DNA from: Clostridia bacterium
GTDB lineage: Bacteria > Bacillota_A > Clostridia > Christensenellales > Aristaeellaceae
Assembly: GCA_025997215.1 (NCBI GenBank)
Contig: BNUH01000014.1
Span: 1-54,269, forward strand
Reading direction: 5' to 3'
Length of the DNA: 54,269 bases
Translations under genes and position numbers: made by a program
In this document: positions 2,789 through 46,571 of the stretch, one piece after another
Position numbering within the stretch: position 1 is the first letter of the stretch
Layout: each line of letters begins with the position of its first letter
Notes under the pieces: model-generated
The model's input: the letters and a program-made list of their open reading frames with translations, nothing else
Database searches by the model: none
What the model was told of the DNA's origin: nothing

Positions 2789-3001
2789 GTGGATCGATTT
2801 TCGCTGCTGCTGGTGATACTGGGCGCGATCAACTGGGGCCTGATCGCAATATTCCAGTTTGACTTGATTGGGTATGTATTCGGCGGGCAGGGCGCGGTCA
2901 TCAGCCGCGTCATATATGGTCTGATCGCGCTGGCGGGGCTGTGGTGCATCTCGCTGCTGTTCCGCGATCATGACCGCGACCGCGACGTCGTCAGGGATTG
3001 A
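2789..3001 (+). CDS. DUF378 family small membrane protein
   Basis: A 70-residue protein with two hydrophobic segments (LLLVILGAINWGLIAIF and VISRVIYGLIALAGLWCISLL) and the GAINWGL signature typical of DUF378 (YuzA-like) proteins. It ends in a charged DRDRD tail, so both ends are probably cytoplasmic. The GTG start at 2789 follows AAGGAGG at 2772-2778. It stands alone between the P-loop-like gene and the Rpn nuclease. The biochemical role of this family is unknown. An imperfect hairpin at about 3066-3090 (GACTGCCGC / GCGGCGGTTCC) downstream may terminate it. Confidence 0.85.
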   Translation: MDRFSLLLVILGAINWGLIAIFQFDLIGYVFGGQGAVISRVIYGLIALAGLWCISLLFRDHDRDRDVVRD

Positions 3002-3106
3002 TAGACGACATTTAAACTTACGGTTTCCGGGCGCTTCATTGCTCATTCTCCTTTCTGGGTGGAGGGACTGCCGCGAATTGCGGCGGTTCCTTCGCTCATT
3101 ATATAC

Positions 3107-3135
3107 TTGTAACCGTGAGGCGGATATGGTAGAAT
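3107..3135 (+). promoter_or_regulatory. Predicted housekeeping promoter of the Rpn nuclease gene
   Basis: TTGTAA at 3107-3112, a 17-base spacer and TAGAAT at 3130-3135. Transcription would start near 3142, giving a leader of about 10 nt before the ATG at 3153. This is a pattern match only. Confidence 0.5.
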
Positions 3136-3152
3136 AGACGCAGAAAGGTTGG

Positions 3153-4076
3153 ATGCTGAATATGCCCAATGAAAGCGCCTCGACGAACCGCGAATATAAG
3201 AGCAGCGTATTCGCCTCCTATTTTTCGGAGTCGAAAGAACGCCTTATTGAGGTATATAACGCGTTATCCAAGACGCAATATCCTCCGGATACCCCTGTTG
3301 AGATAAATACGCTCGACGACGCGCTGTTCCATGGGAGGATTAACGATGTCTCATTTTTGCTGAACAATGTGCTGGTTGTTTTGATAGAGCACCAGTCTAC
3401 TTGGAATCCGAATATGCCGTTTAGGATATTGTTGTATATTGCTAGGGTGCTGGAGCGGATGTATCCGGATATGAGGCCGTATTATAGTTCATCGCTAAAA
3501 AAGATAGCGAATGTTCAATGCTTTGTATTTTACAATGGCCGCGAAGATCGGCCTGATGTGACGAAGTTGAGGCTTTCAGACGCATTTGAAGCCGTACCAG
3601 GCGAGATGGAGGATTCCGAACTTAGCAATCAGCTAGAGCTTATCGTGCCGGTATTTAATATTAATGCCGGAAAGAATCATGATTTGCTGTCAAAGAGTAA
3701 ATCGTTGAACGATTACGTTGTGTTCATCGGGAAAATGCATGAGTTGCTGGCGTCTGGTATGGATCGGACGAAGATTACAAAAGCGGCTATCGATTATTGC
3801 GTTAAACAGGGCATCATGGTGGATTATTTAAAAAAACATGCAACGGAGGTGCTGGGGGTGTTGTTTCATGAGTTCAATCTGGAGGAGTATGGTGAAGTTA
3901 GGTTTGAGGATGGATGGGAAGCCGGACGTGAAGCCGAACGTGTAGACCAACGCCGAAAGTCGATATTGAACGCCATTTCCATGGGCTGTGACGACGCGTT
4001 CATTGCGAAACTGGTGGATGCGCGCATCGAAGAGGTAAGGGAAATGCGCCAAGAATTGCTTATGGCGGCGAGATAA
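3153..4076 (+). CDS. Rpn family recombination-promoting nuclease / putative transposase (PD-(D/E)XK)
   Basis: A 307-residue protein of the Rpn (PDDEXK_2) family, which are DNA nucleases that raise recombination and, in enteric bacteria, have been described as antiphage toxins. The nuclease core is visible as GRINDVSF (Asp65) followed by VLIEHQS (Glu79-His-Gln81), and then MPFRILLYIARVLERMYP. The last about 72 residues form a separate module, EFNLEEYGEVRFEDG, then RRK and a DDAFIAKLVDARIEEV helix pair. This module is preceded inside the gene by a perfect Shine-Dalgarno sequence and GTG, so a short C-terminal product is likely. Two further copies of just this module follow downstream. The ATG at 3153 has AAAGG at 3143-3147. 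No transposon ends were seen, so this is better read as an Rpn nuclease than as an insertion sequence. Confidence 0.85.
   Translation: MLNMPNESASTNREYKSSVFASYFSESKERLIEVYNALSKTQYPPDTPVEINTLDDALFHGRINDVSFLLNNVLVVLIEHQSTWNPNMPFRILLYIARVLERMYPDMRPYYSSSLKKIANVQCFVFYNGREDRPDVTKLRLSDAFEAVPGEMEDSELSNQLELIVPVFNINAGKNHDLLSKSKSLNDYVVFIGKMHELLASGMDRTKITKAAIDYCVKQGIMVDYLKKHATEVLGVLFHEFNLEEYGEVRFEDGWEAGREAERVDQRRKSILNAISMGCDDAFIAKLVDARIEEVREMRQELLMAAR
3845..3860 (+). promoter_or_regulatory. Internal ribosome binding site and GTG start inside the rpn gene
   Basis: GGAGGT at 3845-3850 is followed after exactly 7 bases by an in-frame GTG at 3858. Initiation here would make a 72-residue protein equal to the Rpn C-terminal module. 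The same GGAGGT-N7-GTG arrangement heads each of the two downstream stand-alone copies, which argues that the internal site is functional. Known Rpn biology (an RpnS antitoxin made from an internal start) supports the reading; expression here is inferred. Confidence 0.6.
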
Positions 4077-4123
4077 ACGTCTCGAACCGAGGAATAAACT
4101 TATATGCAATGGAGGTGTTTGAG

Positions 4124-4318
4124 GTGCGATGGGGCGAGTTCAATCTGGAGGAATATGGTGAGGTTAGGTTTGAGGATGGGGTGGATGACTACCGCCGAAA
4201 GACGATTAAGCACGCCATTTCCATAGGCTATGACGACGCATCCATAGCAGTTTTGGTGGATGCGCCTATCAAAGAGGTAAGGGAAATACGCCAAGAATTG
4301 CTAATGACAGTGAAATAA
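4124..4318 (+). CDS. Stand-alone copy of the Rpn C-terminal domain (RpnS-like, candidate antitoxin)
   Basis: A 64-residue protein nearly collinear with the last 72 residues of the Rpn nuclease upstream. It shares EFNLEEYGEVRFEDG, then RRKTIKHAIS, GYDDASIAVLVDA and EVREIRQELL. It lacks the nuclease core, and about seven residues after FEDG are missing. The GTG at 4124 lies 7 bases after GGAGGT at 4111-4116, exactly as at the internal site in the parent gene. An ATG at 4109 overlaps the Shine-Dalgarno sequence and is less likely. It lies 47 bp downstream of the nuclease stop and is probably in the same transcript. By analogy with RpnS it would dimerise with and restrain the nuclease. That function is inference. 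Confidence 0.65.
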   Translation: MRWGEFNLEEYGEVRFEDGVDDYRRKTIKHAISIGYDDASIAVLVDAPIKEVREIRQELLMTVK

Positions 4319-4363
4319 ACTCCGCAAACGCGGCAATAAAAACATGCAACGGAGGTGTCAGGG

Positions 4364-4576
4364 GTGGAGTCGGTAGTGGAGATGCTAACTTATGAGTTTT
4401 TTATTAATGATTATGGTGAAGCCAAGTTTAAGGATGGATTTAATGCCGGACGGCGAAAGATGATGAAGCGCTTAATTATCAAAGGCTATGACGACGCGTT
4501 CATTGCTAATTTCTTGGATGAACGTATCGAAGAGGTAACGGAACTGCGCCAAGAAATGCTTACGGCAGTGAAATAA
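4364..4576 (+). CDS. Second stand-alone copy of the Rpn C-terminal domain, more diverged
   Basis: A 70-residue protein with the same plan: a Tyr-Gly-Glu-x-x-Phe-x-Asp-Gly stretch, RRKMMKRLIIKGYDDAFIANF, then LDERIEEVTELRQEML. The N-terminal part (ESVVEMLTYEFF) differs from the other two copies. The GTG at 4364 follows GGAGGT (4351-4356) by 7 bases; an upstream GTG at 4355 in frame overlaps that site. Its last 17 bases overlap, tail to tail, the 3' end of the ATP-grasp gene on the other strand. The stronger divergence could mean a different partner or relaxed selection, but the frame is intact. Confidence 0.6.
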   Translation: MESVVEMLTYEFFINDYGEAKFKDGFNAGRRKMMKRLIIKGYDDAFIANFLDERIEEVTELRQEMLTAVK

Positions 4577-5576
4577 ACTCCCCAAACCTGGGCATGATGC
4601 CTACGCCGTCCGGGAAGTGCGCGGCAAACTGCGGTATGGCGTGGCTGGGGAATGAGTTCCCTTCGATGAATAGCGGGCTGTCCGCCGTGACCGCCACGTC
4701 CCACGCTACGAATCGCACGCGCGGCTTGACGCGCATGGCTTTCAGGCACATATCGACGGCTTCCTGGAAGAAGGGGATTTGGAAGCCGGGTATACGCGTG
4801 CCTGTCAGCGGGTGCGTTTCGAATGCGCGTCCGGCCTTGTCCGCGCCGACGGCGCTTAGTTTTCCAGTATTAAGGTCGATCGGCGCGGCCATGCCGCCGC
4901 AATCGACATTATCCATCACCCTGCCGTTGCCTATGCGCAGGTATGCGTAAACCACGCCTTGTTTCTTGTCACTTAATAACGTTGCTATTCTCATCGTGTT
5001 TACGGATGTAGGACATAATGACGACATAACGGGATGCTGAACGACGCAGTCCTCGAGCAGGGTAAGATTCTTCTTACGTAATAATGATTCAAACGCGGCG
5101 GGATCGGCGAACGCATCCGGCGTAAACTTTTCAATGCCCTGACCGCTGGAACCATCCATTGGTTTGGCGATGATATCGCCGCGACCTTTCAGCCATGTGG
5201 CCAGCGCGCTGGAAACGGCCGCATCATTACTGGTTAAGTCGAACCAGTCACGGTGCAGGTATTCCGCGAACAGCGTGTTGAATTCATTCTTGTTGTCGAA
5301 AAAGTGCCAGTCGGCCTTGTCGTTCATCCGCTGGACGATGGCGTTGGATTTGCCGCGCGTGATCTGGGTGGCGCGCTGGGCATCGGTCAACCGATAAAAC
5401 TCCGCAATCTTGTAATCCATGTAGCCCGCTTGATACTTGATGGCGCAACGGAACATATCGGCCATCAGCCACAGCACGGAGCGCTTGGCGATGGGCGCGA
5501 GATGCCGCGCGGTTGAGAGCATCTTACCCCAATCCATGTGAAGCGCGCGGCGGATAAGGTATCGGATGCGGTTCAT
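4560..5576 (-). CDS. ATP-grasp family protein (sugar-transfer-associated type)
   Basis: A 338-residue protein resembling the ATPgrasp_ST group found near capsule and polysaccharide genes, in which ATP-grasp enzymes activate carboxylates. Visible features are IIAKPMDGSSGQGIEKF (nucleotide-binding Lys and glycine loop), VVQHPVMSSLCPTSVNTMRI, and FVAWDVAVTADSPLFIEGN, whose E-x-N would bind metal. The ATG at 5576 (MNRIRYLIRRAL) has GGAGG just upstream; a longer frame from 5624 adds residues without a better start. It is the last gene of a minus-strand trio with the EamA half-transporter and the P-loop kinase. Its 3' end overlaps the last Rpn-domain copy by 17 bp. The substrate is unknown. Confidence 0.75.
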   Translation of the reverse strand: MNRIRYLIRRALHMDWGKMLSTARHLAPIAKRSVLWLMADMFRCAIKYQAGYMDYKIAEFYRLTDAQRATQITRGKSNAIVQRMNDKADWHFFDNKNEFNTLFAEYLHRDWFDLTSNDAAVSSALATWLKGRGDIIAKPMDGSSGQGIEKFTPDAFADPAAFESLLRKKNLTLLEDCVVQHPVMSSLCPTSVNTMRIATLLSDKKQGVVYAYLRIGNGRVMDNVDCGGMAAPIDLNTGKLSAVGADKAGRAFETHPLTGTRIPGFQIPFFQEAVDMCLKAMRVKPRVRFVAWDVAVTADSPLFIEGNSFPSHAIPQFAAHFPDGVGIMPRFGEFISLP

Positions 5577-17619: not shown

Positions 17620-17920
17620 TGTAATAATGGAAACGCTGGGATCGGGAATAGTAAACGGCGCATGCGTTCTAAAGAAAGCCATCGGTTGATGCGAGATGGC
17701 GGCGCGTACCGTTGAATCTGGCCCGGGAGCGGTCGGACGAACGGCCTAGATTAAAGTTAGGTTAGGCTTAGTAGCGCCGGACGGATTCCCCCGTAACAGG
17801 GAGCCATCTTTATTTAAGTGCATCTTAAATGGGTGGGTTAAGCTGGACGCCTTCGGGCGTTAAGCAGAGTGGTACCGCGAAGTGGCCTTCGTCTCTGTAT
17901 GAATAGAGACGGGGGTTTTC
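17620..17920 (+). promoter_or_regulatory. T-box riboswitch leader, probably leucine-specific
   Basis: A tRNA-sensing leader RNA. The T-box itself is CAGAGTGGTACCGCG at 17865-17879. Stem I features precede it: an AGTA loop-E-like motif at 17650-17653, the distal GGTTGATGCGA segment at about 17684-17694, and a specifier region GTTGAATCTGGCCCGGGAGC at 17711-17730. Aligned by spacing to the B. subtilis glyQS leader (GAAA-codon-10 nt ending in GAGC), the specifier is CTG (Leu) at 17718-17720. The discriminator-pairing base after TGG is T, which calls for a tRNA with A73. That fits tRNA-Leu and not tRNA-Ser or tRNA-Trp, the alternatives if the codon were TCT or TGG. It ends in a terminator 49 bp before the acyl-CoA synthetase start. 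Class certain, codon moderately sure. Confidence 0.93.
17890..17920 (+). terminator. T-box-controlled intrinsic terminator
   Basis: CGTCTCT (17890-17896) pairs with AGAGACG (17905-17911), followed by GGGGTTTT. The 5' arm can instead be disrupted by pairing of the T-box bulge region when uncharged tRNA binds, which is the usual antitermination arrangement. Confidence 0.85.
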
Positions 17921-43790: not shown

Positions 43791-46571
43791 ATGGAACTAC
43801 GCGCTAACTGTGTCCCGAACGACGATCGCCGTGATCTGCCGGAGGGCTACTGCGACGAAATGGATATATCAAAGACGGAGATCCACGACGCGCACGAACT
43901 GTATTGCTTACTTATTGGCGAACCCGGCGACTACGGCGGCAATGCCAGCGATCATTACGACATCAGGGCGGATATCGTCATAGATGGCGATTGGACGCCC
44001 ATTGTGAGCTTGGGCTTCAAAACTGAAGAATCGGAGACAAACTATCTGCCGATTACGCTCGATGGCCATGGCCACACGATAACGGGCCTTAACGCGGCGC
44101 TGTTCGCGACCGTTTACGGCGGCACGGTCATAAAGAATCTGCATCTGCGCGAGGTTACGCGCAATCCGGATTATGTGGTGTATGGTTATTCCGGGGATGG
44201 CGCTTTTTTACAATCCGGTGCCGCCTCGTTCGTCAACTGCAGCGCCAGCGGCGAGATAACGGGTGATGAAACGCACGACACCATCGGCGGATTCCTTGGC
44301 AACAGCCATAATAACGGAAGCAGCATATTATCGTTCACAAATTGTATTAATTATGTTAATATAAAAGCCGGAGGTCATGTCGGTGGATTCGCGGGCTCTA
44401 TTCATGCCTTTGACGAAATATGGTTTGACCGCTGCGCGAATTATGGCAGCATAACCGTACCGAATATGTTTCAATCCTATAGCATAGGCGGATTCGTTGG
44501 CGAGGTTGCATTAGCGGATCAGTTGTACGTTAAATCCAATGACGGCTATAGTGTCAATTACGGCACGATCAACGGCAAACATATTGTGTTCAACGGCATC
44601 GAAAATCAGCCTGTGGGTTCACAATTTATAGGCGGTTTCGCCGGCCATACCTTGTGCAATGATGTGAAGATCAGGAACTTCATAAACAATGGTAAAATTA
44701 TTACCGCTGGCGATCTTGGCACGATCAGCGCTGTCGGCGGCATTGTCGGAGGAGTGGATACCAAAACCACAGAATTCACAAACTGTATCAGCAATGCTGA
44801 TGTGACATGCGAAGGGCCGCTACCCTCCCGCGTCGGAGGCATTGCTGGCTATTTCTATGCGCGTGGTGTTGAAGAAGAGGATGATGATGTGACGTGTACA
44901 TTCGTTGACAATTATGTATCGAACATAGTTATATCAGGCGCGTGTGATGAAGTAGATGTGGATGGTGGTGCGGCAGGCTTAGCATGCTTTTGGGAAATCG
45001 AACCTCCCATAGTAGCGGCGCATGGCAACTATGTTACCGCTACGCATATACATACGGGTTATTATGGCAAAGTCGGGCGGCTGTTCAACAGAGCGTTCGG
45101 TAATGAGGGCGACGACGATTATGTGTATGATAATTATGCGAAACAGAATGTGCTGCTGACTGGCGGTGTCATTGTGCTAGATTGCGACGAGGATGCTGTG
45201 CAGCTTTCGGATAGTCCGCTGCCCGACAACAATGAGACTGACTGCCCTGACGTGCCCTTCAAAGGCGGCTCGCTGCGCAACGGCGCCGACGCCGAGGCCA
45301 ACTCGATTAAGATCCCGCACATACTGATATTCAACAGCCGCAACTTAGACCCGGAAAAAACTGTTACTTGGGTAGACCCGCTGCTGCTGCATCAACGGAT
45401 CGACAGGGCGGCTATTGATATTGACTTTGCTAATGAACGCCCAGAGCATATACCGCCCGGCGCAAAGTTCATATGCTGGTCCCTGGACGAGGCAGGCAAT
45501 GAATGCGTCACGGATATAGACCAGATTCACAGCAATGTAGCGATCCTTTTTGCGCAGTATGTGTGCTGCTCGCCGGGGTTCAACTATGTTGAAGGCCCTG
45601 GTTGCGTGTTCGTCAGCTGCCCGCCAGGATGCAAACGGGTCGGGCCGAAGGCGTGCGAATGCGAGGGATTGTCCGGCAACGTCTTGGATTCGCTGGGTGA
45701 GATCGTCGCCTCGATAGCGGCTGGCGAGAGCGGTGGCGCGGAAGTCATCAAGGCTGGCGCGGCTGCGCTCGCGGTTATCAAGAATCCCTTAGCGGCGTTG
45801 GTCGGCAGTGAAAAACGTCAGCTGATCGACGGCGTTTATAATATTTATAAAAATATAGCCGACATGGAATGCGTCATGCTGCGCAAGCTGTGCTGCTCCG
45901 TCCGCGCTGTCTGCAACTGCGGCAACAACGATCCGTGCGCCGATTGCTGCACGCTGCCCACAGGCATGCAAAATGCCATGGAGGATATCGTCAGCTCAAT
46001 CGCGGATGTCGAAAGCGCGTCGGGCAATCTGATGCTGGAAAGCGCGTACGTCATTGAAGATACTGTCGATTCATACACGGATGTTGGCGAATTGCAGGAT
46101 ATAATGAATGGCATTCAAGGCTTGACGTGCATTACATCCCAAATCGAGAACACGATGGCCGACAAATTGTGCATGTCGCTGAACGCGGCGTGCGGATGTT
46201 CAGGGCCGAGTGGTATGGCCCAGTGCGTATCTGTAATCATGTCGGATTCAATCTCAAAGGTGATCGAGTCCATCTCCGACACCGAGCAAGGCGCAGGAAA
46301 ACTGGTCCAGTTTGGCGCAGAGGCGTTGGGTTCACTGGACACAGCAACCACGAGCGCGCAGGATGTGCTGGCGGTCATGAATACTGTAGGCAATCTGGCT
46401 GACAGTGCGCTGGCTATCGAGCAGGCGTCCATGCGCAAGCTGTGCTCCAGCCTAAGCGTACTCTGTCCAAATGATAACAACCCGCCGCTCTGTCCCGATG
46501 TGCCGCTGGATTGCGCGGGCATATGCGGCGCAACCTTCGCATGCGGGAAATATATTCAAGGAGGAATATAA
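43791..46571 (+). CDS. Cys-rich beta-helix / helical-repeat paralog 1
   Basis: A 926-residue protein with no signal peptide, membrane segment or sorting motif. Residues about 25-150 have the adhesin-like pattern Asp-Ile...Trp-Thr-Pro-Ile and HTITGLNAALFATV. Six GLUG-like turns (GGFLGN 164, GGFAGS 196, GGFVGE 231, GGFAGH 279, GGIVGG 315, GGIAGY 348) suggest a right-handed beta-helix. Residues about 547-593 (AKFICWSLDEAGNECVTD) resemble an InlB-type B repeat, then comes a Cys-rich linker. Residues about 626-910 are three helical repeats, each with SI..E near the start and a KLC.SL..(V/L)C ending. The repeats recall helical modules of clostridial and Bacillus spore-surface proteins. The ATG at 43791 follows AAGGAGG. 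It is probably a self-assembling, disulfide-linked structural protein; function unknown. Confidence 0.7.
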   Translation: MELRANCVPNDDRRDLPEGYCDEMDISKTEIHDAHELYCLLIGEPGDYGGNASDHYDIRADIVIDGDWTPIVSLGFKTEESETNYLPITLDGHGHTITGLNAALFATVYGGTVIKNLHLREVTRNPDYVVYGYSGDGAFLQSGAASFVNCSASGEITGDETHDTIGGFLGNSHNNGSSILSFTNCINYVNIKAGGHVGGFAGSIHAFDEIWFDRCANYGSITVPNMFQSYSIGGFVGEVALADQLYVKSNDGYSVNYGTINGKHIVFNGIENQPVGSQFIGGFAGHTLCNDVKIRNFINNGKIITAGDLGTISAVGGIVGGVDTKTTEFTNCISNADVTCEGPLPSRVGGIAGYFYARGVEEEDDDVTCTFVDNYVSNIVISGACDEVDVDGGAAGLACFWEIEPPIVAAHGNYVTATHIHTGYYGKVGRLFNRAFGNEGDDDYVYDNYAKQNVLLTGGVIVLDCDEDAVQLSDSPLPDNNETDCPDVPFKGGSLRNGADAEANSIKIPHILIFNSRNLDPEKTVTWVDPLLLHQRIDRAAIDIDFANERPEHIPPGAKFICWSLDEAGNECVTDIDQIHSNVAILFAQYVCCSPGFNYVEGPGCVFVSCPPGCKRVGPKACECEGLSGNVLDSLGEIVASIAAGESGGAEVIKAGAAALAVIKNPLAALVGSEKRQLIDGVYNIYKNIADMECVMLRKLCCSVRAVCNCGNNDPCADCCTLPTGMQNAMEDIVSSIADVESASGNLMLESAYVIEDTVDSYTDVGELQDIMNGIQGLTCITSQIENTMADKLCMSLNAACGCSGPSGMAQCVSVIMSDSISKVIESISDTEQGAGKLVQFGAEALGSLDTATTSAQDVLAVMNTVGNLADSALAIEQASMRKLCSSLSVLCPNDNNPPLCPDVPLDCAGICGATFACGKYIQGGI

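Follow-up and report, generated by a model that had tools for sequence, protein, structure and literature searches.

Why does an rpn-like gene carry, directly behind it and on the same strand, two small genes that repeat only its own C-terminal part, and what could these spare tails do? We analysed the whole stretch of DNA of 54,269 nucleotides, here called the window, together with related loci from other genomes. The features of the locus are listed in the table.

In E. coli, the toxic nuclease RpnL is blocked by RpnS, a small protein made from an internal start of the same gene, as set out in passages of Zhong et al. 2023 (PMC10327210). According to these passages, RpnA_S is a three-helix dimer of solved structure (7TH0), dimerisation takes place via the first helix, and the four-residue repeats of this helix vary in number. 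In RpnC, the addition of one repeat to one partner abolished neutralisation. The same passages report that rpnE is followed by ypaA, a second RpnE_S gene whose product YpaA was detected as a protein, and rpnC by a second RpnC_S gene; the free-standing RpnS genes are described as having originated independently from the adjacent gene, with losses or fusions. The preliminary description of the window took the arrangement to be undescribed, which is not the case in view of these downstream genes (ypaA/rpnES and the second rpnCS), and the window locus is a multi-copy instance of an arrangement known from E. coli. At title and abstract level, we found no further report on Rpn small proteins beyond this paper among the matches listed, which include two papers that mention Rpn (PMC9504249 and PMC12707154). 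New here are the recurrence across phyla, the two-copy arrays, a synonymous-codon test and a length mismatch between copies and parents.

Features of the rpn locus, with positions counted from the first letter of the window
Feature	Positions	Strand	Remarks
Promoter-like hexamers upstream of rpn, weak	3107..3135	+	only promoter-like site in 3000-4700
rpn-like gene (RpnL)	3153..4076	+	307-aa protein; start 3153 or 3162
Internal Shine-Dalgarno GGAGGT	3845..3850	+	in frame, codons of T-E-V; GGAGGT-N7-GTG spans 3845-3860
Internally started RpnS-like cistron, predicted	3858..4076	+	GTG start, 72 aa
Long-helix segment of parent	3915..3950	+	12 residues WEAGREAERVDQ between EDG and RRK; long helix is P0001 241-273 (AF2)
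Shine-Dalgarno GGAGGT of copy 1	4111..4116	+	GGAGGT-N7-GTG spans 4111-4126
Free-standing RpnS-like copy 1	4124..4318	+	GTG start, 64 aa; in-frame ATG 4109 and GTG 4115 without Shine-Dalgarno
Shine-Dalgarno GGAGGT of copy 2	4351..4356	+	GGAGGT-N7-GTG spans 4351-4366
Free-standing RpnS-like copy 2	4364..4576	+	GTG start, 70 aa; other in-frame starts 4355, 4376, 4382

By its sequence, the parent gene can be assigned to the Rpn / YhgA-like (COG5464-type, PF04754) nucleases, as had been proposed. In a Pfam profile search it matches PF04754 (Transposase_31/YhgA-like) at 25.4 bits, above the cut-off of 21. The NCBIfam model TIGR01784 scored 22.1 bits against a curated cut-off of 52.1, and this subfamily was dropped for that reason. 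The database protein P0001 (304 aa) has the length expected for a start at ATG 3162. Three of its residues, D62, E76 and Q78, are invariant in all 51 aligned sequences, so nothing suggests a dead nuclease; we take them to be the D...ExQ-type catalytic residues of a PD-(D/E)XK domain. The AF2 model of the parent (pLDDT 86) places several helices after the nuclease part: one at 220-237, a long one of 33 residues at 241-273, and shorter ones at 278-284 and 289-303. When the parent was searched against 5.8 billion proteins, 1051 of 1914 candidates were matches. The best-scoring other protein is 55% identical and the highest identity is 58%; the nearest matches, where named, come from Clostridia and Oscillospiraceae. 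Two overlapping sets of 394 and 295 genomes yielded no close relative of the window; the best match reached 45% identity. The single promoter-like site upstream of rpn lies within chance expectation (shuffle mean 2.6 such sites), and a scan of 3000-4700 detected no terminator-like site between rpn and the copies.

Within the parent's frame, before the C-terminal domain, there is a Shine-Dalgarno sequence followed by a start codon, the layout expected of an RpnL/RpnS gene; the GGAGGT-N7-GTG site is present as previously noted. Over the whole window, GGAGGT-N7-RTG occurs four times (shuffle mean 0.56; 0 of 100 shuffles reach 4), the fourth match lying at 44370, away from the rpn locus. The internal GTG takes the position of the ATG in the family motif EVxNML. 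More generally, the common motif at the internal start is (S/T)EVxNML with the ATG in the M codon, and the DNA of the relatives mostly reads TCG GAG GTN NNN AAT ATG. Among 145 rpn genes whose tail could be located, 102 have GGAGGT-N7-start (ATG in 97, GTG in 4, TTG in 1). Of the remaining 43, 26 have GAGG and a start, and in 17 the Shine-Dalgarno sequence and/or the start is missing. The Glu codon that forms part of the Shine-Dalgarno sequence is GAG in 132 of 133 cases versus 1635 of 4484 (36%) elsewhere in these genes; for the preceding Ser codon, TCG is used in 58 of 72 cases versus 116 of 1226. The contrast is made within genes, and its P values come out too small, the sequences being related. 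Such a choice of codons cannot be due to constraint on the amino acids, but it can be due to selection on a Shine-Dalgarno sequence. The codon pattern thus indicates that the internal start is under family-wide selection, and it backs the earlier proposal of an internally started C-terminal protein. Synonymous codons that keep a ribosome-binding site inside rpn in several phyla are independent support for the published intragenic antitoxin.

The three C-terminal modules of the window are paralogues. They share a 194-nt repeat family, with members at 3894, 4136 and 4394, and a 29-nt repeat family that covers their Shine-Dalgarno and start region. Homology between parent and copies runs from just 5' of the internal Shine-Dalgarno sequence (the KHATEV codons) to beyond the stop codon, so the duplicated unit was the internal cistron together with its ribosome-binding site. 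At the protein level, copy 1 is 68% identical to the parent tail and 51% to copy 2, and the parent and copy 2 share 47%. Both frames stay open as far as the stops (4318 for copy 1, 4576 for copy 2), and the gaps between a stop and the GTG that follows are 47 and 45 nt. The database lists both as predicted proteins of the contig, P0122 with 64 aa and P0121 with 70 aa, the lengths expected for starts at GTG 4124 and GTG 4364. Being tail-only, downstream of rpn, on the same strand and provided with their own Shine-Dalgarno sequence and start, the copies have the layout of free-standing RpnS genes. The core of the preliminary description, an internal cistron duplicated into a small, diverging array of two tail-only copies with GGAGGT-N7-GTG, is hence upheld by the module homology. 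Its wording "copied twice", read as two independent events, is not: between EDG and RRK both copies hold four residues (VDDY in copy 1, FNAG in copy 2), eight residues or two four-residue units fewer than the parent, and this difference is common to both. Copy 2 has in addition six extra residues near its start.

The AF2 model of copy 1 (mean pLDDT 73) consists of three helices at 19-34, 38-45 and 49-62, with residues 1-18 at low confidence. Fold searches of the copies against the PDB gave weak matches, largely helix-turn-helix-like, and 7TH0 (RpnA_S) was absent among the 50 listed in either search. These matches are in line with a remark in PMC10327210 that RpnS resembles helix-turn-helix motifs. 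The paper also mentions DUF4351 (PF14261) as the label of some free-standing RpnS; neither copy matches PF14261, and DUF4351 was dropped as a family for them. Copy 2 (4364-4573) has a weak PADLOC match to PDLC01084, a "putative invertase" of 90 aa (E 0.0027), a model that possibly represents free-standing Rpn tails.

How closely does this resemble the E. coli pair? In strain K-12, AAAAGGAGAGATTAATG stands at the rpnE internal start and again at the rpnE stop, and ypaA has one four-residue unit more than rpnE (GWQEGMHEQ versus GWQEGKLEGLHEQ). Like the window, rpnE-ypaA has an internal Shine-Dalgarno sequence and start, and directly downstream on the same strand a tail-only copy which repeats both and differs from its parent in the number of four-residue repeats. 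Unlike the window, there is one copy (in 8 pairs) and its Shine-Dalgarno sequence overlaps the rpnE stop region; the window has two copies of older divergence (47-68% between modules), GTG starts and the longer stop-to-GTG gaps given above. The free-standing RpnC_S gene downstream of rpnC, going by its description in PMC10327210, was likewise duplicated independently, from the rpn gene that precedes it. Antitoxin-like genes in rows beside a toxin gene are also found in the orphan immunity arrays of type VI secretion, which, in the relevant part of PMC5361080, are thought to preserve protection against other variants; those arrays stem from acquired effector-immunity pairs, whereas the putative antitoxin of the window was duplicated from within the toxin gene itself.

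In order to see how common such copies are, we searched 800 nt of DNA flanking each full-length gene for matches to the tail of that gene. A first scan covered the best 80 of at least 528 loci, and a larger sample comprised 146 distinct full-length reading frames, of which 145 had a located tail, 137 at least 400 nt of downstream DNA and 126 at least 400 nt of upstream DNA. This search of relatives, which the preliminary description had called for, found tail-only copies just downstream of rpn in 14 of the 137 cases, or in 13 of 136 if the window is not counted; the loci are mutually related and some come from one genome (L015 and L105; L067 and L103; L103 is the same as L093; L numbers denote loci), so that events are fewer than loci. 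One more downstream match, at L175, was accompanied by matches to the nuclease part. Upstream, tail-only copies were found at none of the 126 genes; two tail matches there, both with nuclease-part matches, come from neighbouring rpn genes. With the window left out, the difference between downstream and upstream has a Fisher probability of 0.0002. Segments of the nuclease part, searched downstream as a control, had matches at none of 101 genes of the first sample and at 3 of 137 when the sample was enlarged; the control is imperfect, given that an intragenic duplication would not show downstream.

Eighteen copies are spread over the 14 loci, with two each at four of them (the window, L015, L046 and L067). 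Their hosts, where named, are Treponema, another Spirochaetes bacterium, Planctomycetota, Fibrimonadaceae and Lachnospiraceae. For 15 of the 18 copies, the tail of the adjacent parent is a better match than the tails of other loci. The exceptions are the copies at L035 (better matched by L027 of the same assembly), L105 (by L099) and L174 (by L195), the last two pairs each from the same genome. The L174 copy fits the L195 tail ungapped at 86% identity, better than it does its adjacent parent, and the copies at L035 and L105 are not length-matched to the better-fitting paralogue. By this pattern, copies as a rule derive from the gene next to them, and a few show signs of exchange between paralogues within a genome. 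At L067 (5909-5912) and L093, the ATG of the first copy overlaps the parent stop (ATGA), which suggests coupled translation; the parent site at these loci is GGAGGA rather than GGAGGT-N7-start. At L021 (5880-5911) the parent stop sits in a repeat of the region around the gene's internal start (GAGCATAGAACGGA), and this junction resembles a short-homology tandem duplication. Neighbouring or tandem rpn-like genes were seen at L164, L197 and G309:C1:686601-700269.

The copies are, as a rule, of another length than the tail beside them. Among the 15 of 18 copies that could be compared (L058, the second copy at L067 and L156 were dropped), 14 differ in internal length from the adjacent parent: the difference is a non-zero multiple of four in 10, another non-zero value in 4 and zero in 1, although for L035, L029 and the second copy at L046 the distal part differs as well and the gap is not one of the helix alone. 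In E. coli, the repeat number differs in 8 of 8 tail-copy pairs, with five distinct length pairs, among 11 loci read (8 with recognisable tail and copy, 2 without a copy, 1 whose tail was missed by the pattern). Length variation by four-residue units in the predicted long helix, a mark of RpnL/RpnS systems, is found in the window too. The spare RpnS gene, so far an E. coli curiosity, becomes a recurrent feature and poses a testable puzzle: most spare copies are of a length that does not suit the nuclease beside them, and they may have other targets or be stored parts.

We suggest that the locus is an RpnL/RpnS intragenic toxin-antitoxin system whose internal antitoxin cistron was tandemly duplicated at the 3' end, the copies, if active at all, probably having a different specificity, and we hold this reading with modest confidence. 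In brief, full-length RpnL would be the nuclease, toxic by analogy with the E. coli work, and the internal RpnS, having the same helix length, would restrain it. The downstream cistrons may lie on the same transcript and be translated from their own GGAGGT-N7-GTG sites. Because they are two four-residue units shorter in what, by the RpnA_S structure, should be the dimerisation helix, the copies would probably pair poorly with the adjacent RpnL. If active, they are more likely antitoxins of another specificity, directed at paralogous, foreign or former Rpn proteins.

A use of both copies as extra antitoxin for the adjacent RpnL, as a control of dosage, had also been proposed for this array. The shared strand, the lack of a terminator-like site between rpn and the copies and the strong Shine-Dalgarno sequences agree with it, as would some constraint on copy 1 and the production of YpaA reported for E. 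coli (PMC10327210). By the published rule on repeat number, however, copies mismatched in length should not restrain the neighbouring RpnL: a change of one unit abolished neutralisation in RpnC (PMC10327210), the window copies differ by two, and inequality prevails in the survey and in E. coli alike. The rule derives from RpnC, and a fast, functionless turnover of repeats would look the same; on this analogy dosage control is disfavoured, and we regard it as quite improbable. Altered specificity, akin to the role against foreign Rpn nucleases that was proposed alongside it, or storage as tail cassettes, fits better. Another possibility is that the copies are decaying tandem duplicates from short-homology recombination that carry the Shine-Dalgarno sequence by chance, which we judge unlikely, with copy 2 the better candidate. 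Compared with the parent, copy 2 has a pS of 0.29 and a pN of 0.27 (bootstrap fraction with pN at or above pS 0.37), so that no purifying signal is seen in it, and elsewhere the second copy at L067 is truncated, the copy at L156 lacks its middle, and a recognised Shine-Dalgarno sequence is missing before the start at L121 and L021. NCBI labels ypaA of K-12, as well as the separate copy in 8 of 8 further E. coli loci listing one, as pseudogenes, yet YpaA has been detected as a protein (PMC10327210). A GAGG-type Shine-Dalgarno sequence 7-8 nt before an in-frame start is kept in 10 of the 16 copies detailed. Both window frames are intact, with in-frame indels only, although the chance of staying open under substitutions alone is 0.22 for copy 1 and 0.14 for copy 2 and openness therefore proves little. 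For copy 1, pN lies below pS against the parent (0.17 and 0.35; bootstrap fraction with pN at or above pS 0.010), so some constraint on it is likely, part of this signal coming from the parent's own constraint.

The copies could also serve as donors that recombine with the rpn 3' end and swap the nuclease tail and the internal antitoxin in one step, an idea to which we give a low probability. Mosaics are seen in 4 of the 18 copies (L035, L131, L029 and the second at L046), the first 66 nt after the start being 89-98% and the last 75 nt 32-52% identical to the parent; the copies at L021 and L174 and the first at L046 are, against this, similar in both parts, and in the window the 5' part is no more similar than the 3' part (77/67% versus 79/80%). 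The window does contain a tract in which parent and copy 1 share a letter that copy 2 lacks at 11 of 13 informative sites, compared with 20 of 51 outside it (Fisher 0.0047, and 0.022 in a run test; both post hoc, the tract having been chosen after the data were seen). In E. coli, the loci L208 and L209 have no separate copy, and it is their only rpnE that bears the copy-type 3' end. This end occurs in 5360 of 5426 complete E. coli genomes, against 3095 with the parent-copy junction at 80% cover, and in 40 records taken in even steps down the ranking, a separate gene lay under the match in 22 and rpnE alone in 18; ten of these 40 were retrieved. Either duplication or collapse could explain the single and paired forms, and the direction of change matters here since the single form may be ancestral. 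Joining such a donor role to the altered specificity that we prefer, we speculate, as a long shot, that rpn genes of different phyla maintain small rows of tail cassettes at their 3' ends, with near-identical start regions and differing helix lengths and distal ends, and that these cassettes double as antitoxins against Rpn proteins of other specificities and donors for recombination. If this were true, tail and matching internal antitoxin would be replaced in one event, and the specificity of toxin and antitoxin could shift without a mismatch.

All three stop codons of the window locus are followed by 4-bp inverted repeats around an AAC-rich loop, at 4081-4091 (CTCG/CGAG), 4322-4333 (CCGC/GCGG) and 4581-4592 (CCCA/TGGG), of which only the second is predicted to fold accordingly. 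Elsewhere in the window, a T-box leader was found at 17629-17899 (RF00230, 96.1 bits).
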